In this document: positions 45,067-61,835 of the stretch, piece by piece
How the letters are laid out: every line of letters begins with the position of its first letter
Position numbering within the stretch: the first letter of the stretch is position 1
Made by a program: the position numbers and the translations under genes
DNA from: an uncultured Pelagibacteraceae bacterium
Lineage (GTDB): Bacteria; Pseudomonadota; Alphaproteobacteria; Pelagibacterales; Pelagibacteraceae
Direction: 5' to 3'
Assembly (NCBI GenBank): GCA_902544985.1
Contig: CACCFV010000003.1
Coordinates: 1 to 64,000, forward strand
DNA: 64,000 nucleotides
The notes under the pieces: generated by a model
Databases searched by the model: none
The model's input: the letters and a program-made list of their open reading frames with translations, nothing else
What the model was told of the DNA's origin: nothing

Positions 45067-45083
45067 TTTTCAATTAAAATATT

Positions 45084-45113
45084 AAAGGTGGCTACTTATA
45101 AGTAGCTACCTTT
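45084..45113 (+). terminator. Strong hairpin just downstream of fdh (possible terminator / mRNA 3' end)
   Basis: AAAGGTGGCTACTTATAAGTAGCTACCTTT is self-complementary apart from one G-U pair; no long U-tract follows. Confidence 0.55.
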
Positions 45114-45154
45114 AAAATCTGGACTTATCATAACGAATTTGTTTATGATAATTA

Positions 45155-49012: not shown

Positions 49013-49480
49013 TTAATTTAATATCATTAGGTTATAGTTAAGAAATAAAGCATAGAGACACCAAAGTAAATATGGAATCATTAAGTAATAACTTACAAAA
49101 TTGACACGTTTAAATCTTATAATCAAAATTATTATCAAAGTTATCAAAATAACTAAAACAACTAATGCAAAAAATATGTGATGTAATCCAAAAAAAACAA
49201 TACTCCAAGTTGCATTAAAAACTATATGTATAAAATAAATATAAATTGTATTTACATCTCTTTTTTTACTGTGCCAAAAGAACCAAATAGCTAATGTCAT
49301 CATTATGTAAAGTGTCGTCCAAACAGGGGCAAATATCCAATCTGGTGGATTATAATTTGATTTAATTAGACCAGAGTACCAAGGCTCTTTGAGGCTTATA
49401 GTGACCAAACCACCTATAAATGATGCAGAAAAAGTGACAATTGAAAAAAGAATTAATGATAAAAATTTATTTTTTAACAT
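49013..49480 (-). CDS. tspO: TspO/MBR (tryptophan-rich sensory protein) family
   Basis: five TM; WYSGLIKSNYNPPDWIFAPVWTTLYIMM, FNATWSIVFFGLHH; start assigned to the internal Met. Confidence 0.92.
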   Translation of the reverse strand: MLKNKFLSLILFSIVTFSASFIGGLVTISLKEPWYSGLIKSNYNPPDWIFAPVWTTLYIMMTLAIWFFWHSKKRDVNTIYIYFIHIVFNATWSIVFFGLHHIFFALVVLVILITLIIILIIRFKRVNFVSYYLMIPYLLWCLYALFLNYNLMILN

Positions 49481-49504
49481 ATTAGTATTATACATCTTTA
49501 TAGA

Positions 49505-50266
49505 ATGGATAAAAAAACAATTTGGATTACAGGTGGTAGCACAGGAATTGGTAAAGCTTTAGCAATAAAATTTGCCAAAGAAGGTTGGAATGTTGCAATT
49601 TCTGCAAGACGTGAAAATCTACTAAAAGAGACTTGTGGAGAACATGAAAATATTAGTTCTTTTCCACTAGATGTAACCGATAAAAGTAAATGTAAAGAAG
49701 TCTTCCAAAATATAGTTAATACTTTTCATAATATAGATATTTGTTTTTTCTCAACTGGTACATGGGATCCAAAAAGAGAAAAAGATATTGATGTTGAACA
49801 AATTGAAAATGTTTTTAAAATTAATTTCTTTGGAACCTTAAATAGCATTAAAGCTGTAGAGAAATACTTTAAGGACAAAAAGAGTGGAACGATTACAATA
49901 GTCTCATCTATTGCAGGTTACCGAGGTTTGCCTAACTCAACAGGGTATGGACCTTCTAAATCAGCTTTAAATAATTTAGCTGAAAGTTTATATTTTGATT
50001 TCGGTAGATCAAATGTCCGAGTATGTCTAGTCTCACCAGGTTTTATTAAAACACCCATGACAGATAAAAATGATTTTAAAATGCCTTTCTTAAAAACTCC
50101 TGAATATGCTGCAGAAAAAATTTATGATGGTTTAATAAAAAAAAATTCTTTTGAAATTCATTTTCCAAAATCTCTAACAATTATCTTAAAGATACTTAGC
50201 TTCCTACCAAATAGAATTTATTTTGGATTGATTGGAAAACTTACAAAGTATCAAAAAAAAAATTAA
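49505..50266 (+). CDS. Short-chain dehydrogenase/reductase
   Basis: 253 aa; TGGSTGIGKALAI, STGTW, SSIAGYRGLPNSTGYGPSKSAL. Confidence 0.9.
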   Translation: MDKKTIWITGGSTGIGKALAIKFAKEGWNVAISARRENLLKETCGEHENISSFPLDVTDKSKCKEVFQNIVNTFHNIDICFFSTGTWDPKREKDIDVEQIENVFKINFFGTLNSIKAVEKYFKDKKSGTITIVSSIAGYRGLPNSTGYGPSKSALNNLAESLYFDFGRSNVRVCLVSPGFIKTPMTDKNDFKMPFLKTPEYAAEKIYDGLIKKNSFEIHFPKSLTIILKILSFLPNRIYFGLIGKLTKYQKKN

Positions 50267-50811
50267 TCTTTAACAAAAACTACAGTTAATTCTGCTACTT
50301 TAAAACCAAATTTAGTCATTGTAGCTCTGTTAATTGCTACACGATCATCTTGTTTAAAAATCCAATCATCAAAGGTAATTTTCATCTCTTTACCTTTTAC
50401 TGGAACTAATAAAACATATTCAAATTTAAAAGCTGGGCCATATGAATATCCCTTAGCTTTTCCTACAACATCTCCTGCTGTACCCTCATAATTATTTTCA
50501 TCAATTTTAGTAATTTGCCACTGCCTATTTTGAATTTCTCCATCATCCCAATTAAATTTTTCATCAAGTATCAGTTGTTTCCCATCCCATTTTCCATTTA
50601 AATCTGCAGAAAATTGTCTTGTAACTTTTCCTGATCTATTTTGAAGTACTCCCCATGCTTTTACATTACCAGATAAATAATTTTCAATTATTAACCTTGG
50701 TTCTTTATTTTTAAAATCTTCTGGTTTCATAGCGCTATTATTTGAACAGTTTGTAATTAAGAATAGAAAAATTATCAATATAATTGATTTAATATTTTTA
50801 TTTATTGTCAT
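50263..50811 (-). CDS. DUF3833-family lipoprotein
   Basis: 182 aa; lipobox-like LITNCSN; NRSGKVTRQFSADLNGKWDGKQLILDEKFNWDDGEIQNRQW, MTKFGFKVAELTVVF. Confidence 0.85.
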   Translation of the reverse strand: MTINKNIKSIILIIFLFLITNCSNNSAMKPEDFKNKEPRLIIENYLSGNVKAWGVLQNRSGKVTRQFSADLNGKWDGKQLILDEKFNWDDGEIQNRQWQITKIDENNYEGTAGDVVGKAKGYSYGPAFKFEYVLLVPVKGKEMKITFDDWIFKQDDRVAINRATMTKFGFKVAELTVVFVKD

Positions 50812-50827
50812 ATGTCTCCTTTTGAAC

Positions 50828-52006
50828 TCATTTATTCTGTAATGAAAATTGAATTAAATCTATATTTTTGGATTTAAATCCTGCTTCACAATAAGATAGA
50901 TAAAACTCCCACATTCTTTTAAAAGTTAAGTCAAATCCTTGTTTTTTTATTAAGTCCCACTTCTTATTAAATTCATTTCTCCATATTGCTAATGTATTAG
51001 AATAATGATCTGCATAAGAATCATATGATTTTATAGTTAAGCCATTTTCTGAAACATATTTATTAATAATACTTTTGCTTGGTAAAAATCCTCCAGGAAA
51101 AATATATTTTTGGATAAAATCTGTCTTAGTTTTATATCGATCAAATATATTGTCGTCTATCGTAATTGCTTGAATAGCTGCTCTTCCATTGTCTGATAGA
51201 TTGTTCTTTATTGTTTTAAAATAACTTTCTAAATAATTTTGTCCTACCGCTTCAATCATTTCAATTGAAGCAATTGAATTGTACTTGTCTCTTAAATCTC
51301 TGTAATCTTTTATTTCTATATTTACTTTTTCATTCAACCCACACTCATGGATTCTTTTTTTTGCATATTCAAATTGTTTTTTTGAAATAGTTATACAGTC
51401 TAACTTTACATCATATTTTTTTCCTAAATATTCAGCAAATCCACCCCATCCACATCCAATTTCTAAAATTTTATCTCCATTGTTTGGTCTTATTAAATCA
51501 ATTAATTTTTGGTATTTATTATTTTGAGCATTTGAAAGTTCTTTATTTCTCTCATCAAATATTGCACTAGAATAAGTTAAAGTTTTATCAAGCCAAAGTG
51601 CAAAAAACTCATTTCCTAAATCATAATGTTTTGAAATATTTTCTTTACTTCGACCTCTCGTATTCTTGATGAATATATTTTTCACATAATTGACTATTGG
51701 GAAATCTAATAAACCAGAAAATTTATGAATTATTTTGATATTTCTTGCAGTAATCTCAATTAAATTTGAAAGGTTGTCAGTTTCAAATTCATCCCTCATG
51801 TAAGATTCAGCGAAACCAACACTTCCTCCCTTTATCAAATTGAAAGAAAAACTTGGTTTTTTTATTTTCAAAGTAGATTTTAAAGAGCTATTAGGGTTTC
51901 CAAATTTTAATAATTCTCCATCGTATTTTATTATTTCCAAATATCCTTGGTCAATATTTTTCAAAATTTTTAAAACAATTTGATCTGAAATGTTATATAT
52001 GCCCAT
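50828..52006 (-). CDS. Cyclopropane-fatty-acyl-phospholipid synthase family SAM methyltransferase
   Basis: 392 aa; SKHYDLGNEFFALWLDKTLTYSSAIF, ILEIGCGWGGFAEYLG, CITISKKQFEYAKKR, SIEMIEAVG. Confidence 0.93.
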   Translation of the reverse strand: MGIYNISDQIVLKILKNIDQGYLEIIKYDGELLKFGNPNSSLKSTLKIKKPSFSFNLIKGGSVGFAESYMRDEFETDNLSNLIEITARNIKIIHKFSGLLDFPIVNYVKNIFIKNTRGRSKENISKHYDLGNEFFALWLDKTLTYSSAIFDERNKELSNAQNNKYQKLIDLIRPNNGDKILEIGCGWGGFAEYLGKKYDVKLDCITISKKQFEYAKKRIHECGLNEKVNIEIKDYRDLRDKYNSIASIEMIEAVGQNYLESYFKTIKNNLSDNGRAAIQAITIDDNIFDRYKTKTDFIQKYIFPGGFLPSKSIINKYVSENGLTIKSYDSYADHYSNTLAIWRNEFNKKWDLIKKQGFDLTFKRMWEFYLSYCEAGFKSKNIDLIQFSLQNK

Positions 52007-52764
52007 TAATTCTCAAAAGTAATATTATTCCTAATCTTAAGTTTTTTTTTTATAAATTTTATTCCTTTGAGCCATAATTTAAAAGCTTCAAAATGTATCG
52101 CTGAAATGATTTTAAAAGTCATTAATGGGTGTTTTATGTAAGATTTTAGTAATTCTTTACTATTAAAATCAACTCTTTTTCCATCTTGAGATGCAAATAA
52201 AATTTTTTCATCTAGTTGATATTGATCAATAACGACTGAAATCTTTTCCGAAGGTTTTAAAATTCTAAAAAAATAATTACAGTTCATTTCAATAAATGGA
52301 GAAACATGAAATTTTTTTGAACAGTTGTGTTGTAACAAATTATCATTTTCAACTTTAAAAATATAAGTATGTTGTTCTCCAAAAGTATTTTTTACCTCAT
52401 ATAAAATTGAAATTAAATTTTTGTTATTATCATAAACAAAAAAAACGCTTAAAGGATTAAAAACATACCCCAAAATTCTTGGATAACACAAAAGTTTTAT
52501 TCTTATATCTTTTGAATTTATATCGTTTTCATCTAAGTTTTTTTTTACCCATTCAATTAGAGATGAACCATCTCTTTCACCATGATCTTTGTCAAAAAAA
52601 CTAATTAGATTAAAACGATTATAAGAAAAAAATGTTATATCTTTACCCAAATTATTAAGATCAGATAAATCAATTAATAATGAAAATACTCTATATTTAA
52701 AAAAATGTAATTTGGGTTTAAATCTCTTGTGGATTACTGTTCCATTGTAAATTGAACTAGTCAT
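52006..52764 (-). CDS. DUF1365 family protein
   Basis: 252 aa; YNGTVIHKRFKPKLHFFKYRVFSLLIDL, LLCYPRILGYVFNPLSVFFVYD, KKFHVSPFIEM. Confidence 0.92.
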   Translation of the reverse strand: MTSSIYNGTVIHKRFKPKLHFFKYRVFSLLIDLSDLNNLGKDITFFSYNRFNLISFFDKDHGERDGSSLIEWVKKNLDENDINSKDIRIKLLCYPRILGYVFNPLSVFFVYDNNKNLISILYEVKNTFGEQHTYIFKVENDNLLQHNCSKKFHVSPFIEMNCNYFFRILKPSEKISVVIDQYQLDEKILFASQDGKRVDFNSKELLKSYIKHPLMTFKIISAIHFEAFKLWLKGIKFIKKKLKIRNNITFEN

Positions 52765-53998
52765 TAAGGTATTTTAGCATTTCAATAGATGATTTTATTC
52801 CATCTTCATGAAAACCGTAACCAAAATAACTACCACAAAAAAGAATATTTCTTTTATTTTGCAAATTTTTAAGCTTACTTTGATGATCTAAAGCTAATTG
52901 ATCAAAATATGGGTGGGTAAATTTTACCTTCTTTAAAATCTTTGTCTCATCAATGTTAAAATAAGGGTTTAGAGTAAGAAAGATATTTTTTTCACATTCT
53001 AAATTTTGCAATAAATTTAACCAATAAGTGATAGAATTTTTTTCAATTTCATTTTTTTTCATAGATGAGTTCCAAGAACACCAGGCATTCTTATTTTTAG
53101 GCATAACTGACTCATCTGTATGTATATAAGCATAATTTTCTTTATAACTAAAATTAGATAGAATTTCTTTTTCTTGATCAGTTGGATTTTCAATTATTGA
53201 TAATGCCTCATCAGCATGAGTCGCAACAATTACTTTATCATAATCAAAAAATTCATTTTTTCCGCCATAATATAAATCAATACCATTACTTTTGCTTACA
53301 ATCTTATTTACTTTATAATTTTTAAAATACTCGCCACTAATTTTTGAAAGAATTGTTTTTACATATGATCTGCTTCTATTTGAAACTGTATACCATTGTG
53401 GTCTATTCTTAAGTTTAAATAATCCATGGTTTTGAAAAAATTTTAAAAAAAATTTTAAAGGCATCTTGTTTGCAGCATAAGGTGGCATCGACCAAATTGC
53501 TGATACCATAGGTATTAAATGATAATTTATAAATTCTTTAGATAAATTATTCTTTACCAAATAATCCTCTAAAGTGATTTCCTCATTTAAATCATTTAAT
53601 CTGTCAGATTTTTTATAGAATTTTAGAATATCAAAAAACATTTTCAAAAATCTGATATTAAATAAATTCAACTTATTAGAAAAAATACCATTTAATCCTT
53701 TTCCACAATATTCAAAGTTTGAATCTTTTACTGATACAGAAAAAGACATATCGCTTTTTTCAATTTCAATTTTATTTTCATTAAAAAACTCAATTAAATT
53801 TGGATAAGTTTTAAAGTTAAATACGATGAAGCCTATATCCACTGGAACTTTTTTCGTTCCAAAAATTAAATCTATTGTATGAGAGTGCCCACCAAAATGA
53901 TCCTCTTTTTCAAATAAATCTACATGATTATTTTTAGAGAGGTAATAAGCTGCACTTAATCCTGAAATGCCTGAACCAACTACAGCAATTTTCATCAA
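52757..53998 (-). CDS. FAD/NAD(P)-binding amine-oxidase-like protein
   Basis: 413 aa; IAVVGSGISGLSAAYYLSKNNHVDLFEKEDHFGGHSHTID, VDIGFIVFNFKTYPNL, CGSYFGYGFHEDGIKSS. Confidence 0.92.
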   Translation of the reverse strand: MMKIAVVGSGISGLSAAYYLSKNNHVDLFEKEDHFGGHSHTIDLIFGTKKVPVDIGFIVFNFKTYPNLIEFFNENKIEIEKSDMSFSVSVKDSNFEYCGKGLNGIFSNKLNLFNIRFLKMFFDILKFYKKSDRLNDLNEEITLEDYLVKNNLSKEFINYHLIPMVSAIWSMPPYAANKMPLKFFLKFFQNHGLFKLKNRPQWYTVSNRSRSYVKTILSKISGEYFKNYKVNKIVSKSNGIDLYYGGKNEFFDYDKVIVATHADEALSIIENPTDQEKEILSNFSYKENYAYIHTDESVMPKNKNAWCSWNSSMKKNEIEKNSITYWLNLLQNLECEKNIFLTLNPYFNIDETKILKKVKFTHPYFDQLALDHQSKLKNLQNKRNILFCGSYFGYGFHEDGIKSSIEMLKYLND

Positions 53999-54001
53999 TG
54001 A

Positions 54002-56872
54002 TTATGCTGCATCTTCTTTGAATTCATCCATGCTTGGACACGTACAGAAAATATTTTTATCACCATAGACATTATCTACTCGAGCTACTGGTGGCCAAAA
54101 CTTATTTATTTTTAAAAATTTAGCTGGATAAGCTGCCTCTTCTCTAGAATATTTATGAGTCCAATTATCAGAAGCTAACTCGGTGTCGGTATGAGGAGCA
54201 TTTTTAATTGGATTGTCAATTTTATCAAATTTACCAGTTTTAATTAAATCTATCTCTTGTTTAATCTTAATTAAAGTATCACAAAACCTGTCAAGCTCTG
54301 ACAAGTTTTCACTTTCTGTAGGCTCAATCATCATTGTTCCTGCTACAGGCCAAGACATTGTCGGTGCATGGAAACCAAAATCAATTAATCTTTTTGCAAT
54401 ATCTTCTTCGGTAATACCTGTTTCAGATTTGATTGATCTAATATCTATAATACATTCATGAGCAACATTGCCATTTGAACCTTTGTATAAAATTGGATAA
54501 TGATCTTTTAGTCTGTCAGCAATATAATTTGCATTCAGTATTGCAACTTTAGAAGCAAGTTTTAATCCCTCAGATCCCATCATTTTTATATACATCCAAG
54601 AAATTGATAAAATACTTGAACTTCCCCAGGGAGCGGCAGATACAGCTCCTATTCCTGTTGCAGGACCACAATCTTTTACAACAGGGTGATTAGGCAGATA
54701 AACCTGTAAATGTCTTTTACAAGCTATGGGCCCCATACCTGGTCCACCACCACCATGAGGGATACAAAATGTTTTGTGTAAATTGATATGACAAACATCA
54801 GGACCAAAGTTTCCAGGTTTAGCTATACCAACTAATGCGTTTAAGTTTGCACCATCCATATAAACTTGTCCACCATGTTTGTGAATTAATTCGCATATCT
54901 CCATTATTTTTTCTTCAAACACGCCATGAGTAGATGGGTATGTTACCATGAGAGCTCCTAAATTTTCTGAATGAAGTTCCGCTTTTTTCTTTAAATCATC
55001 AAAATCAACGTTACCTTCTTTATCACAATTAACTACAACTACTTTCATCCCTACCATTTGAGCACTAGCAGGATTTGTTCCATGTGCAGAGCTTGGTATC
55101 AAACATATGTTCCTATTTTTATCACCTCTATCTAAATGATATTTTCTTATTACCATTAATCCTGCATATTCACCTTGAGCACCTGCATTGGGTTGAAGTG
55201 AAACACCTGAAAAACCAGTAATTGATCTTAACCAATTTTTTAGATCAGTGAATAATGTTCTATATCCTTCCATTTGCTCTATGGGCACAAACGGATGAGG
55301 TTCAGCTAATTCTCTCCATGAGATAGGAATCATTTCTGCAGTAGCATTTAATTTCATGGTACAAGAACCTAGTGCAATCATAGTTCTGTTCAGAGCGATA
55401 TCCTTGTCCTCTAACTTTTTAAGATACCTAACCATTTCTGTCTCTGAACGATATGAATTAAAAACAGGGTGTTCTAGATATTTTGAAGTTCTTAATAAAT
55501 TTTTTGGCAGATTGGGTAAACTTACCGTAGGATCTTCTTTCTTAATTGATTCCGCTGCATTAAAAATTTTTAATAGTTGATTTACTCTATAAACATTTTT
55601 TCTCTCATCAAAAGAAACTGCAAGCATTTCAGAATTTACTTTTCGTATATTTACTTTTTGATTTAAAGCATTTTTATAGATTTGATCAGTCTTTTCTTTA
55701 GTAATAATTGTAACAGTATCAAAAAAATGATCAGAATATATTTCATAGCCAGATTGTTTTATTTTATCAGCAAAATTTTTTGCTAATTGCGATACTCGTT
55801 CAGAAATATTTTTAATTCCATCTGGACCATGATAAATAGCATATGCAGCTGAAACTATGGCTAACAATGCCTGAGCAGTACAAATATTACTTGTCGCTTT
55901 GTCTCTTCTGATATGTTGCTCTCTTGTCTGTAGTGACAATCTATAAGCCTTATTCCCATGTCTATCTACTGAAACACCAACTATTCTACCTGGCATAGAT
56001 CTCTTAAATTCATCCTTTGTTGCAAAAAATGCTGCATGTGGTCCGCCATAACCCATTGGAATACCAAATCTTTGAGAACTGCCAACTGCAATATCAGCCC
56101 CAAGTTCTCTTGGTGTTTTTAACTTAGCAAGTGCAAGAAGATCACAAGCTAAAATTGCTTTACCATTTTTTTTATGAATTTTACTTATTGCCTCGCTTGG
56201 ATCTTTAATATCACCCAAAGTTCCTGGGTACTGTAAGACTCCACAAACAATGTCTTCTTTTAATTGCTCCAGAACTTTGTCTTCATTTCCAACAAGAACT
56301 TTAAGGCCCATAGGCTCTGCTCTAGTTCGTATAACCTCAATTGTTTGAGGATGACAATTTTCTGAGACAAAAACTAAATTACTGTCACTTTTATTAAGTC
56401 TGTAACTTAACCCCATAGCTTCTGCTGCGGCTGTACCCTCATCTAATAAAGATGCATTGGCAATATCCATTCCAGTAAAATCAACAATCATTTGTTGAAA
56501 GTTCAAAAGCATCTCTAATCTTCCTTGTGCCACTTCTGGCTGATAAGGTGTGTATGATGTATACCAGCCTGGATTTTCCAATATATTTCTTAAAATTACA
56601 TAAGGTGTATACGTACCGTAATAGCCCATTCCAATAAAATTTGAGTAAATTTGATTTTTTTTAGAAATTGCTTTTAATTTTCTTAATGCCTCATACTCTG
56701 AATTAGATTCACCAATATTAAGTTCACCCTTAAACTGTATTTTTTCTGGAACGGTATTGTCAATTAAATCATCTAATGATTCATAATTTAATTTTTTTAA
56801 CATTTTTAATTGATCATCTTCAGATGGACCAATGTGTCTTTTTATAAAATCTTTTTGAGAATTATGTAACAT
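54002..56872 (-). CDS. gcvP: Glycine dehydrogenase (decarboxylating), full-length P protein
   Basis: 956 aa; [80 protein letters not shown] type PLP region. Confidence 0.97.
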   Translation of the reverse strand: [956 protein letters not shown]

Positions 56873-57252
56873 TACGTGGTAGTCTCCTTTGCAAACTTGT
56901 CGTATTCATCTTTACTCATCAAAGAATCCATCTCAGACTTGTCTTTAATTCTTAGTTTAAAGAACCAAGCGATATTTTCTGGATCTTGATTAATAATTGA
57001 TGGGTTGTCGACTATACTCGGGTTAGTTTCTACTACTTCTCCACTTACAGGAGTATAAACATCACTCGCTGCTTTTGTAGACTCAACCACCCCTGCTGTT
57101 CCATCTTTTTCTACGTTAGAACCTTTTTCTGGAAGTTCAGCAAAAACAATATCCCCCAACATCTCTGTAGCATGCTGAGTTATTCCTATTGTCGCAATAT
57201 CACCTTCTAATCTAATCCATTCATGTTCTTTAGAATATTTAACTTCGCTCAT
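56872..57252 (-). CDS. gcvH: Glycine cleavage system H protein
   Basis: 126 aa; [40 protein letters not shown], lipoyl-lysine region [13 protein letters not shown]. Confidence 0.97.
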
Positions 57253-58355
57253 TAGTTTACTCCTTTCACATAACTTTTTTTATAAAACGGTAAACTACAA
57301 ATATTAGCTGCATGTTTTTTACCTCTAACCTCTAAAAATACTTTAGTATTTTTTTTTGAAAATTCATTTTCCACATAGCCCATTGCCACAGGTCCGTTAA
57401 CACTAGGTCCAAATGTACCGCTTGTAATCTCCCCAATATGAACATCTGATTGATTAAATATTTTCGTTTTTTCTCTAGCAATAATTTTACCCTCGGGTTT
57501 AATTCCAACTCTTATTTTGCTAACACCATTATTTAATTGTTTAATGATGATGTCAGAACCTATAAAGTCTCCTTTAGATATTCTTTCTTTCGAAATTGCC
57601 CATTTCAAATTTGCTTCTACGGGAGTTTTATCTTTATCAAGATCATGGCCATATAAACATAAGCCAGCCTCTAATCTTAGAGTATCTCTGGCTCCTAAAC
57701 CTACTAATTTTGAACCTTTGTTAATCAATTCTCTTGTTAATTTATCTGCAGAGTCATTTGAGATTGAAATTTCAAAACCATCTTCACCTGTGTATCCAGA
57801 TCGAGTAATGTATACTTTTTGATTTTCAAAAGAAAACCAATTTCCTGACATAAAATTTAGGTCTTTAACTCCTACAACAACTTCATTTAGAATTTTTGAT
57901 GATTTAGGACCCTGGATTGCTATTAAAGATCTATTTTCATCCAAAACCATTTCATATTTTTCACTTAATAATCCCTTTAAAATTCTCAAATCATTGTATT
58001 TACACGCTGCATTAAGAATTATTAAAAATCCTTCATTTATTTTTGTAATGATTAAGTCATCTTGTATCCCTGCATCTTTATCCATTAAGAAACTGTATTT
58101 TGAATGATTTAATTTTAAATTTTTCAAATCTAATGGAAAAATTTTTTCTAAATCTTTGATTAACTCATCGCCACCATAAATAAATAATTGACCCATATGT
58201 GAAACATCAAAAATCCCAGAATGATTTCTTGTGAATTTATGCTCTTCTACAATGCCCTCAGAATATTGGATTGGCATCTGGTAACCAGCAAATTCAACAA
58301 ATTTTGCATTGCAATCTTGATGTAATTTATACAGCGGTGTTTTTTTTATTTCCAT
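57252..58355 (-). CDS. gcvT: Glycine cleavage system aminomethyltransferase
   Basis: [64 protein letters not shown] at 58355 (MEIKKTPL) is preceded by AAAGAG with 5-nt spacing; ORF-track start at 58373 is an alternative. Confidence 0.96.
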
Positions 58356-58377
58356 ATTAACTCTTTTACCCATCTGT

Positions 58378-58513
58378 ATATTTGCCTGAGAGTTTTGCTC
58401 CTTCGGCGAGAATTAAATCTCTTTCCAGAGTTAATATGCTACGGTCCTTTTTGCCTGAGAGATTCCTGGGTGGTTGCTCCTTCGGCGCTACAATAGTCTG
58501 TAGTCTCTCCCGT
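58378..58513 (-). promoter_or_regulatory. Tandem glycine riboswitch upstream of gcvTHP
   Basis: Two aptamer cores on the minus strand, each with GCCGAAGGAGCAA...CTCTCAGGCAAA: aptamer 1 about 58513-58441, aptamer 2 about 58437-58378. Confidence 0.96.
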
Positions 58514-58544
58514 GTTTGAATATTCCTATAAGAGGCTTTAAATG

Positions 58545-59423
58545 TCAATTGGAAACAGTTGCCTTTGGCTTTTTTAAAAGCGTGTAAAACTGTAATAATA
58601 CAGCAAAAAGTATTATTGTTCCTCCTATTAATCCGTACAATGATGGTATTTCACTTACAAAGAGAAAAGCCCAAATAGGACCTAGAACAGATTCGGATAA
58701 CATAATTATTCCAACCATTGCAGAAGGTGTTGTTCTTGCACCAATTGTTATAAATATAAAACCAAAACCTATTTGAAAAAATCCAGCTAAAAAACCTAAA
58801 AAAATATCATGAGGTGAAATCATTATAGTTGGTGAAAGTGATAAACCAATAAGACATGAACTTACACCTGCAACAAACTGTGCTGGGACCATATCAACAG
58901 ATGGAAATTTTCTAACGATCATTATCAAAACTGCAAAGGTAATTGGCATTGTGAAAGCTGCTAAATTTCCAGATAATTCTCCTGGAGATAATGAATTTCC
59001 AACCATTAACAGCACTCCAGACATTGCTAAAATAATTGAAATCAACGTAATTAAATTAATTTTTTCTTTTAAGAAAAAGAAACCAAATATAGCTAAAAAT
59101 AAGATTTGAAGTGATATGATGAAATTAGTATTGGCAACAGTAGTGTTATACATGGCAAAAACATAACCACAAAAACCAATAGATAATATTAATCCACCAA
59201 TAAAACCTGGTAATCCAGAGTCATAAAACGATTTTAAAACTTTACTTTTATAAGTGATAATCAAGAAAGTTAAAACAGTAAGAGAAAAAAATAAAGATCT
59301 CCAAAATAATATCTGCCATAGTGTTGCTCCCTCAAAAGATTTTACAATTAATCCTCCAAAGCTTAAACTAAGAGCGCCTAAGAAAATCAATAATGGGCCA
59401 GGTAAACTTTTTAAAATAGTCAT
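58545..59423 (-). CDS. DMT-superfamily (EamA) transporter
   Basis: 292 aa, ten-TM EamA repeat; TTVANTNFIISLQILFLAIFGFFFLKEKI. Confidence 0.87.
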   Translation of the reverse strand: MTILKSLPGPLLIFLGALSLSFGGLIVKSFEGATLWQILFWRSLFFSLTVLTFLIITYKSKVLKSFYDSGLPGFIGGLILSIGFCGYVFAMYNTTVANTNFIISLQILFLAIFGFFFLKEKINLITLISIILAMSGVLLMVGNSLSPGELSGNLAAFTMPITFAVLIMIVRKFPSVDMVPAQFVAGVSSCLIGLSLSPTIMISPHDIFLGFLAGFFQIGFGFIFITIGARTTPSAMVGIIMLSESVLGPIWAFLFVSEIPSLYGLIGGTIILFAVLLQFYTLLKKPKATVSN

Positions 59424-60367
59424 TAAATTTGTGAAATTAAATTTTGAGTTTCTAAGTCATACAATTTAAAAAGAGTTTCTGCACTATTTAAATCTACCTC
59501 TTGAAACTTAACGCTTGAACCAGGAGTTAATTGAACTAATCTATCATAATCAGCACTTATAACTACACCAATTTTAGGATATCCCCCGATAGTTCCGTGA
59601 TCTGAAAGCATGATTATTGGATTGCCATCAGCCGGCACTTGTATAACGCCCTTAATCAATCCTTCAGATCTAATATTTGTATCAACAATATTCTCTATTT
59701 TTTTTCCTTCTAATCTCATTCCCATACGATCAGATAATTTAGAAACTTTAAATTCATTTCCAAAAAAAAGTTTTTTACCTTGCTCAGAAAAATAATCAAA
59801 ATTTGTTCCTTTCATAACTCTAATATTTTCTATCTTTGTATTAATATAATTTAATTTTTTACTTACTAAATTTTGGTTAATCTCTTTAATATTAATTTTT
59901 TGGTTAACAGATAATTTTTCTCCATTATTAGATCCTATCTTTGCCTGAATATTTGTTGAACAACTTGACCATTGAAACTTTAAATCAAATTGACCACTAA
60001 TTGCTAAATATCCATAAACCGATTTATTTGTTGATATAATATCTAGCTCATCATTATTTTCTAAAATAAAAGATCGATAACATTCTCCATCAATTAAATT
60101 ATCACCCTTTTTAATTTTAAAACTGACATCACCAGTGATAGCAATATTTATTGCGTTACCATGATATTTTAAATGAGGCCCTTGATAGGCAAATTCTATC
60201 ACAGGATGATTATTGTCATTGCCAGTAAGTTTGTTAGCTAATAAATAATTTCTATTATCCATGGCTCCACTAAATGGAATACCTATATGATAAAGATTAT
60301 TTCTTCCAAGATCTTGGAACGTTGAATTAATTCCAGCCCTTAAAATTTCAAAATAATTTTTATCCAT
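59423..60367 (-). CDS. pxpC: 5-oxoprolinase subunit C (biotin-dependent carboxyltransferase-like)
   Basis: 314 aa; EILRAGINSTFQDLGRNNLYHIGIPFSGAMDNRNYLLANKLTGN, DHGTIGGYPKIGVVISADYDRLVQLTPG. Confidence 0.93.
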   Translation of the reverse strand: MDKNYFEILRAGINSTFQDLGRNNLYHIGIPFSGAMDNRNYLLANKLTGNDNNHPVIEFAYQGPHLKYHGNAINIAITGDVSFKIKKGDNLIDGECYRSFILENNDELDIISTNKSVYGYLAISGQFDLKFQWSSCSTNIQAKIGSNNGEKLSVNQKINIKEINQNLVSKKLNYINTKIENIRVMKGTNFDYFSEQGKKLFFGNEFKVSKLSDRMGMRLEGKKIENIVDTNIRSEGLIKGVIQVPADGNPIIMLSDHGTIGGYPKIGVVISADYDRLVQLTPGSSVKFQEVDLNSAETLFKLYDLETQNLISQI

Positions 60368-61034
60368 GATAATTTTGATAATTCTCTTTAGTAATTCTCT
60401 TAAATGTAACTAAGTCACCTGGATTAATTAAGTTGGGCTCATTTTCTTTAGAGCTATCAAAAATATTTAATGGAGTGTTGCCAATAATATTCCATCCTCC
60501 AGGACTTTCAAATGTGTAGATATTTGCAAATTGTTCTGTCAAACCAATCGAACCTTTTGGCACCTTAACCCTTGGAGTATCAAGACGTTTTGCTCTGAGA
60601 TTTTCATCTAAATCTCCAAGAAAAGGCATACCTGCAATAAAACCTGTCATGTAGCAAAAAAATTCTTTTTCAAAAAAATTCTCATATATTTTTTCCTCTT
60701 TCATTTTAAGCTTTTCTTCTAATCTTTTTATGTCCAAAGAAAATTCTTTTTCACAACAAATAGGAATTTCAAATTTTTTATTTTGAATGTTGTCACTATT
60801 TATAACTTCAATATTATCAATTATCTTTTTAAGTTTATTAAAATTAATTTTTTTAATATCGAAAGAAACAATCAATTTATTGTATGATGGTGTAAGATTA
60901 TTAACCCCAACAATATTTTTTTTTTGAATAGTTTTAAAATATCTAATTACTTGAGTGTTAATTTCTTTACTTATCTCTTTACCAAAATCACAGTATAAAG
61001 CTGCGTCACCAAGATTTGATATATTTTTTATCAT
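60360..61034 (-). CDS. pxpB: 5-oxoprolinase subunit B (KipI/allophanate hydrolase subunit 1-like)
   Basis: 224 aa; GVNNLTPSYNKLIVSFD, FFCYMTGFIAGMPFLGDLDENLRAKRLDTPRVKVPKGSIGLTEQFANIYTFESPGGWNIIGNTPL. Confidence 0.93.
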   Translation of the reverse strand: MIKNISNLGDAALYCDFGKEISKEINTQVIRYFKTIQKKNIVGVNNLTPSYNKLIVSFDIKKINFNKLKKIIDNIEVINSDNIQNKKFEIPICCEKEFSLDIKRLEEKLKMKEEKIYENFFEKEFFCYMTGFIAGMPFLGDLDENLRAKRLDTPRVKVPKGSIGLTEQFANIYTFESPGGWNIIGNTPLNIFDSSKENEPNLINPGDLVTFKRITKENYQNYHG

Positions 61035-61055
61035 GCCATGTTATACTGAAGAATA

Positions 61056-61835
61056 ATGAGTATTGAAATTAATATAAATTGTGATTTAGGTGAAAAATCT
61101 AAACATCATTCTAATAAGCATGATCCTGACTTGCTCGAGATAGTCAATTCAGCAAACATAGCATGTGGTTATCATGCGGGAGACGAGGAGACTATGAATA
61201 ACGTTGTAGAAATATCAAAAAAAAATGGCGTTAGTATTGGTGCACATCCGTCTTTTAATGATCCTGAAAACTTTGGTAGAGAAAGAATGAATTTATCATC
61301 TTCTGAGATAGAAAAATTGATAATTGATCAGTATGAAATTCTTCAAACAATTTCATCTAAACATGGTGAGAGTGTAACTCATATAAAACCACATGGTGCT
61401 TTAAACAATATGGCATGTGAAGATATTGATTTGGCTACAACTTTAGCAAAAGTGATTAAAAGTATAAATCCACAGTTGATTTATTTAGTACCAACAGGTT
61501 CAAAAATGGAACAAGCCGCTAAAAAGCTTGATATGAATATTGCATGTGAAATATTTGCTGACAGAAATTATGAAGATGATGGAAATCTTGTATCAAGAAA
61601 AAAACCTCACGCCTTAATTACTGATCCAGAGCAAGCAAAAAAGCATGTATTAAAAATGGTCCAAACTCAGTCACTTAATTGTCACAGTGGGAAACAAATA
61701 CCTTGTGAAATCGACTCTGTGTGCATACATGGAGATAATCTAAGTTCATTAGAAACTGCTAAATCAATTAAAAAAAATTTATTAGATAATGGACTTACAC
61801 TTAAAACATTAAATAAAATGAAAAAATTTATATGA
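61056..61835 (+). CDS. pxpA: 5-oxoprolinase subunit A (LamB/YcsF family)
   Basis: 259 aa; ININCDLGE, SANIACGYHAGDEETMNNVV, IGAHPSFNDPENFGRERMNLS, HIKPHGALNNM. Confidence 0.95.
   Translation: MSIEININCDLGEKSKHHSNKHDPDLLEIVNSANIACGYHAGDEETMNNVVEISKKNGVSIGAHPSFNDPENFGRERMNLSSSEIEKLIIDQYEILQTISSKHGESVTHIKPHGALNNMACEDIDLATTLAKVIKSINPQLIYLVPTGSKMEQAAKKLDMNIACEIFADRNYEDDGNLVSRKKPHALITDPEQAKKHVLKMVQTQSLNCHSGKQIPCEIDSVCIHGDNLSSLETAKSIKKNLLDNGLTLKTLNKMKKFI

Follow-up and report, generated by a model that had tools for sequence, protein, structure and literature searches.

Synthesis of furan fatty acids in R. sphaeroides depends on UfaM, which methylates cis-vaccenate, on UfaD (RSP1091, an NAD/FAD-binding protein), which desaturates 11Me-12t-18:1, and on UfaO (RSP1090, DUF1365), which turns the diene into the furan with oxygen from O2; RPA2571-2570-2569 of R. 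palustris have equivalent activities (PMC7380195). The genes ufaD, ufaO and ufaM are consecutive in Halomonas YLGW01, where UfaM gave 11-methyl-octadecenoate when expressed in E. coli (PMC12089945). In most genomes, ufaDO adjoins rpoE/chrR (PMC3818230). SAR11 bacteria are described as the oceans' most abundant heterotrophs (PMC3160333), and the sigma factors reported for them are sigma-70 and sigma-32 only (PMC13198564). Our literature search found no report linking SAR11 to furan or 11-methyl fatty acids.

We computed homology, clade placement, gene order, spacing, riboswitch matches and the absence of ChrR for a gene block in a window of 64,000 nt (the whole stretch of DNA analysed) from a member of the Pelagibacteraceae. 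The best reading of the sequence is a putative UfaD-UfaO-UfaM pathway with an additional DUF3833 lipoprotein, serving the synthesis of furan or at least 11-methyl fatty acids. We consider it likely that this is a furan-fatty-acid pathway without sigma-E/ChrR, located distal to gcvTHP in most Pelagibacter-like genomes and set in its level by the gcv promoter and riboswitch.

Results

Organization of the locus

Open reading frames and Pfam domains bear out the six-gene cluster that a previous sequence-only reading of the window had described (Table 1). Its four minus-strand genes are consecutive as claimed, with overlaps of 8 nt (ufaD/ufaO) and 1 nt (ufaO/ufaM) and a spacer of 16 nt between ufaM and the DUF3833 gene, and strands and coordinates agree with an SDR gene convergent with DUF3833 and divergent from TspO. 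The limits assigned to the cluster did not hold, since the block runs gaplessly upstream into gcvP-gcvH-gcvT and a riboswitch. By sequence reading, AAGGAG precedes the DUF3833 start, and TspO lies 9 nt from the SDR start. The UfaD-UfaO-CMAS order was seen again in the majority of a comparison set of 101 loci, and dN/dS of 0.00–0.17 for the six genes versus four relatives indicates purifying selection, by which all six are maintained. Because the gene order recurs and purifying selection acts on all genes, the block is not a chance arrangement.

Table 1 Features of the block and of the adjoining gcvTHP genes in the window
Feature	Coordinates	Strand	Basis and remarks
TspO, divergent neighbour, membership not established	49013..49495	-	PF03073, 130 bits
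SDR, convergent neighbour, accessory at most	49505..50266	+	adh_short, 151 bits
DUF3833 lipoprotein, accessory	50263..50811	-	PF12915, 206 bits; lipobox ITNC
ufaM-like SAM-dependent fatty-acyl methyltransferase, CMAS family	50828..52006	-	CMAS domain, 285 bits; tree
ufaO-like DUF1365 protein, putative furan-ring oxygenation	52006..52764	-	PF07103, 260 bits
UfaD-like FAD-dependent putative fatty-acyl desaturase	52757..53998	-	Amino_oxidase and NAD_binding_8 domains; likely ATG 53995
gcvP	54002..56872	-	ORF; 1-nt overlap with gcvH; GDC-P family match G000:C3:55562-56842
gcvH	56872..57252	-	ORF; 1-nt overlap with gcvT
gcvT, glycine cleavage T protein	57252..58373	-	ORF and position; first gene of putative transcript
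Possible second glycine aptamer, shortened; directly ahead of gcvT start codon	58381..58425	-	sequence GCCGAAGGAGCAAAACUCUCAGGCAAA
Glycine riboswitch aptamer RF00504, before gcvT	58432..58522	-	60.8 bits

The window (~28% GC, very AT-rich) belongs to a genome (G000) represented by 0.93 Mb at 77% completeness, in which rhodopsin and photolyase genes are present; genomes of the order span 0.8–1.5 Mb, and ufaO is present in 125 of 149 near-complete genomes sampled. Genome size, base composition, rhodopsin and the gene arrangement around the glycine riboswitch all point to SAR11/Pelagibacterales. Elsewhere in the window, a long, nearly perfect intergenic hairpin at 45068-45129 is probably a terminator (best Rfam match mir-303, insignificant at E 0.37), and genes resembling 5-oxoprolinase subunits (PxpABC-like) occupy 59423-61835, upstream of an EamA gene.

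UfaD and UfaO

The window UfaD is 35% identical over 423 aa to its Rhodopseudomonas homologue and 42% identical to that of Thalassospira, and the window UfaO is 41% identical to its Rhodopseudomonas homologue; the Rhodopseudomonas pseudopalustris sequences used are those of the ufaD-ufaO-CMAS row in locus L181. A sequence search of the PDB returned the amine oxidase LkcE as the nearest relative of solved structure for UfaD, and no matches for UfaO and DUF3833. The structure model of UfaO (pLDDT 93.8) found no confident match when its fold was compared with the PDB (best E 1.4e-3, TM 0.29–0.36), and for this reason we assign it no cofactor. Its invariant residues include H12, D60, H132 and H224. 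The sequence-only reading had tied the Cfa-like protein of such clusters to methylated and furan-type fatty acids; the tie itself stands but extends beyond that protein, since the FAD protein and the DUF1365 protein are proven homologues of UfaD and UfaO, respectively (PMC7380195).

The methylase is of the UfaM type

The phylogeny that had been proposed as a check, calculated with IQ-TREE for 53 CMAS proteins, does not group the window methylase with canonical Cfa but places it in a UfaM clade, apart from the Cfa clade, with support of 100/99. The UfaM clade (43 rows) comprises the window protein, all UfaO-adjacent proteins, the CMAS protein of R. pseudopalustris (40% identical to the window UfaM) and stand-alone homologues from Rhodobacteraceae; its anchor is this R. 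pseudopalustris protein, an orthologue from the same genus as the R. palustris enzyme that was tested, and not the tested sequence. R. sphaeroides UfaM is represented by Rhodobacteraceae homologues beside putative trgA and cysK, a neighbourhood that we take to be the RSP2144 setting of R. sphaeroides. The Cfa clade (10 rows) contains E. coli Cfa, alphaproteobacterial Cfa and a second CMAS protein of the window genome.

The bicarbonate ligands C139, E239, H266, I268 and Y317 of E. coli Cfa correspond to S147, E252, Q279, I281 and Y335 in the window protein. C139 and H266 are retained in all 10 rows of the Cfa clade; in the UfaM clade, glutamine occupies the position of H266 in 43/43 rows and serine that of C139 in 37/43. 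Tree and active-site residues together rule out a canonical Cfa identity. The residues alone leave the product unsettled, because cotton cyclopropane synthases carry the identical H266Q change and sometimes C139S too (PMC3132707). Halomonas UfaM also increased cyclic fatty acids in E. coli (PMC12089945), and from both observations it follows that the window methylase could make some cyclopropane.

The second CMAS gene (G000:C5:16239-17030; L001 1162-2349) is of the Cfa type by tree and active site, grouping with E. coli Cfa; the genome thus encodes a Cfa-type enzyme outside the block. It is followed by an extremely lysine-rich ORF of 399 aa.

DUF3833, SDR and TspO

The DUF3833 model (pLDDT 90.3) adopts a calycin (lipocalin-like) barrel, with Foldseek matches to calycin barrels at E 1e-5 to 1e-3 that include a fatty-acid-binding-like protein, polyketide spirocyclases and lipocalins. 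Lipobox and confident barrel model make lipid binding in the envelope plausible, and DUF3833 is probably an envelope lipoprotein that binds or carries lipid. Deletions of RSP1088 and RSP1087 in R. sphaeroides, which we equate with DUF3833 and SDR by length and gene order, left fatty acids unchanged and furan fatty acid synthesis intact (PMC7380195).

Many clusters have an SDR gene next to the block, and its orientation varies. TspO and SDR adjoin it in most same-genus loci, and the TspO neighbourhood is rare elsewhere: outside the order, TspO lies beside ufa genes (next to ufaD or ufaM) in only 2 of 140 loci, L107 and L233, a count that speaks against TspO as a pathway partner. SDR and TspO are neighbours, not established parts of the pathway. 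In L233 (3907-5715, Rhodobacteraceae), TspO is directly upstream of a stand-alone UfaM-type gene.

The block follows gcvTHP and a glycine riboswitch

An RF00504 aptamer precedes gcvT with 60.8 bits against a gathering threshold of 32 (E 1.3e-10). Rfam scored this one glycine aptamer only, and the aptamer-like sequence at 58425-58381 may be a second. The gcvP stop at 54002 is followed after 6 nt by the probable ufaD ATG at 53995, and the corresponding gap in relatives is -1 to 14 nt. Among 42 distinct same-genus genomes, 30 of which were picked by DUF1365 score and not randomly, gcvP stands directly before ufaD in 36 and an EamA transporter gene in 6. Riboswitch searches were positive at the equivalent place in 14/14 gcvTHP-ufa loci of relatives and negative in 3 EamA-type loci and in 5 loci from genera without gcvTHP. 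The gcvP gene was not found in the 3 EamA-type genomes tested (92–98% complete), which means that the ufa genes persist without glycine cleavage.

Strand and spacing suggest that the ufa block is the downstream end of a gcvTHP operon headed by the glycine riboswitch. The earlier proposal of constitutive or differently controlled expression, which had missed this connection, is thereby made specific. Glycine-riboswitch reads obtained in situ were reported to continue mostly into gcvT (PMC5069720), so the riboswitch-gcvT transcript is active in the sea. Promoter-like sites occur within gcvP at 54098-54071 and 54304-54275; in the promoter/terminator consensus scan, sites were no more frequent than in shuffles, and the scan is hence uninformative.

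Upstream genes differ across the order

In genera g2-g4, a photolyase gene is directly before ufaD, with an overlap of 4 nt in L056. The photolyase genes near ufa genes make a link to light visible even without ChrR. Some members of family f2 carry genes for sarcosine oxidase subunits upstream of the ufa genes (L070 996-4956 and L071-L073), joined in L070 by a DUF983 gene; this is the second case of a one-carbon/glycine operon preceding ufaDOM. Two same-genus EamA-type genomes without gcvP have a photolyase-related (DPRP) gene a few genes past the ufaDOM-DUF3833 set (L053 10044-11540, with a homologue in L055), and TspO is missing from its usual place there.

No full-length ChrR in 197 genomes of the order

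Sigma-E/ChrR control, which is usual for the UfaDOM pathway and does not define it, has no visible basis in the window genome: neither ChrR nor an ECF sigma factor was found in this 77% complete assembly, and one sigma-70-family gene was found, which agrees with the two sigma factors reported for SAR11. Full-length ChrR above the cut-off occurred in 0 of 197 genomes of the order, compared with 66 of 190 alphaproteobacterial genomes. These results extend the initial observation that no ChrR or sigma factor is visible at the locus, and the compared loci likewise confirm that related clusters are found near ChrR/sigma-E and photolyase. For the 190 alphaproteobacterial genomes, ufaO and chrR were scored as both present in 68, ufaO only in 25, chrR only in 4 and neither in 93, a strong co-occurrence (Fisher p 3e-25, uncorrected for phylogeny). 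Genomes with ufaO and without chrR tend to be small, with a median size of 1.6 Mb as against 3.9 Mb.

A hidden ChrR was rejected for the 197 genomes searched: their weak matches, none over the cut-off, are for the most part isolated cupin frames (115-152 aa, one of 232 aa). Cupins weakly matching the C-terminal half of ChrR occur in 20 of 197 genomes, mostly as single domains of ~115-122 aa (for example G131:C7:23645-23884).

Discussion

Proposed pathway and its alternatives

The three enzyme reactions are demonstrated for homologues elsewhere. By analogy, UfaM would methylate cis-vaccenate (18:1) in phospholipid acyl chains to 11-methyl-12t-18:1, UfaD would desaturate this to 11-methyl-10t,12t-18:2, and UfaO would insert O2-derived oxygen into the diene to close the furan ring of 9M5-FuFA, which scavenges singlet oxygen in membranes. 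The pathway would have been inherited from a light-stress regulon whose sigma-E/ChrR switch was lost in this lineage, and in most Pelagibacter-like genomes the gcv promoter and the glycine riboswitch would set basal and glycine-dependent ufa levels. We infer (i) formation of the product in this organism, (ii) co-transcription with gcvTHP, (iii) a rise of expression with glycine and (iv) protection from singlet oxygen.

It is improbable that the block yields methylated or cyclopropane fatty acids only, with UfaM acting simply as an acyl methylase or a cyclopropanase, and UfaD and UfaO drifted to other substrates. The tolerance of plant UfaM-type active sites for cyclopropanation and the cyclic acids raised by Halomonas UfaM would fit such an outcome, as would the identities of just 35–41% between UfaD and UfaO and relatives of the tested enzymes; however, throughout the order and in most of the class ufaD-ufaO-ufaM keep their arrangement and overlaps, under strong purifying selection, and the genome already has its own Cfa-type gene. 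A lipid-modification island joined functionally to TspO and SDR for porphyrin or light handling is far less credible still: both genes adjoin the block in most same-genus loci and TspO recurs beside ufaD/ufaM in L107 and L233, but its scarcity outside the order, the differing strands and the dispensability for furan fatty acids of the R. sphaeroides genes at the SDR and DUF3833 positions argue against it.

A different alternative concerns regulation only and leaves the pathway untouched: ufaDOM may be transcribed constitutively from its own promoter inside gcvP, the contiguity with gcvTHP reflecting genome compaction. We regard this as rather doubtful, though not far-fetched. Six relatives have ufaDOM behind EamA without gcvTHP, so ufa function does not require the link to gcv; photolyase or sarcosine-oxidase genes take the upstream place in other genera, minimal spacers are usual in SAR11-type genomes, and promoter-like sites exist within gcvP. 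Such sites are, however, no commoner than in shuffles, and ufaD lies within ~14 nt of a co-directional upstream gene in the arrangements measured, with the photolyase overlap in L056 as an extreme; this close spacing fits reading from an upstream promoter.

Beyond the preferred reading of gcv-linked control, we can only speculate that glycine, as a proxy for light, signals the making of furan phospholipids that quench singlet oxygen, that the riboswitch replaced the ChrR singlet-oxygen sensor and that glycine cleavage feeds one-carbon units to the methylation, a combination we consider unlikely. Glycine might report strong light as a photorespiration product that phytoplankton form via glycolate. 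If glycine is such a signal, the family of the order with sarcosine oxidase genes before ufa would be a parallel case.

If the pathway works, SAR11 may naturally supply large amounts of the furan fatty acids that occur in marine food webs, and its lipids would protect it from sunlight in the absence of a sigma factor that senses ROS. The concentration of ufaO without chrR in small alphaproteobacterial genomes further indicates that a stress regulon can persist after its regulator is lost.

Comparison with known systems

The block resembles R. sphaeroides RSP1091-1087 plus ufaM (RSP2144) in its UfaD, UfaO and UfaM homologues, and in DUF3833- and SDR-like genes as judged by size and position; the R. 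sphaeroides layout is also found in L164, likely a Rhodobacteraceae locus. Unlike the window, R. sphaeroides has ufaDO under sigma-E/ChrR, ufaM elsewhere and a third gene of 402 aa (likely an MFS transporter), whereas the window has ufaM within the putative operon and no ChrR. The three consecutive genes in identical order match R. palustris RPA2571-2570-2569 and Halomonas YLGW01, where function was tested; unlike in the window, glycine cleavage genes or a riboswitch are not reported for the ufa genes of these two organisms. Homologous domains also occur in the plant UfaM-UfaD fusions (AtUFAMD1, cyclopropane synthases) and AtUFAO1 (PMC10940516), but the fusion is eukaryotic, and the cotton homologues sharing H266Q are cyclopropane synthases (PMC3132707).

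In the literature on the Pelagibacter gcvTHP operon we found no mention of fatty acid genes after gcvP, and our search found no main-text citation of SAR11_0669-0672. The order of membrane protein gene, riboswitch and gcvT in the window is that of Candidatus Pelagibacter ubique (SAR11_0666 onwards; PMC2704228). We read the block as an established pathway whose regulatory setting is new, carried by a very abundant lineage.
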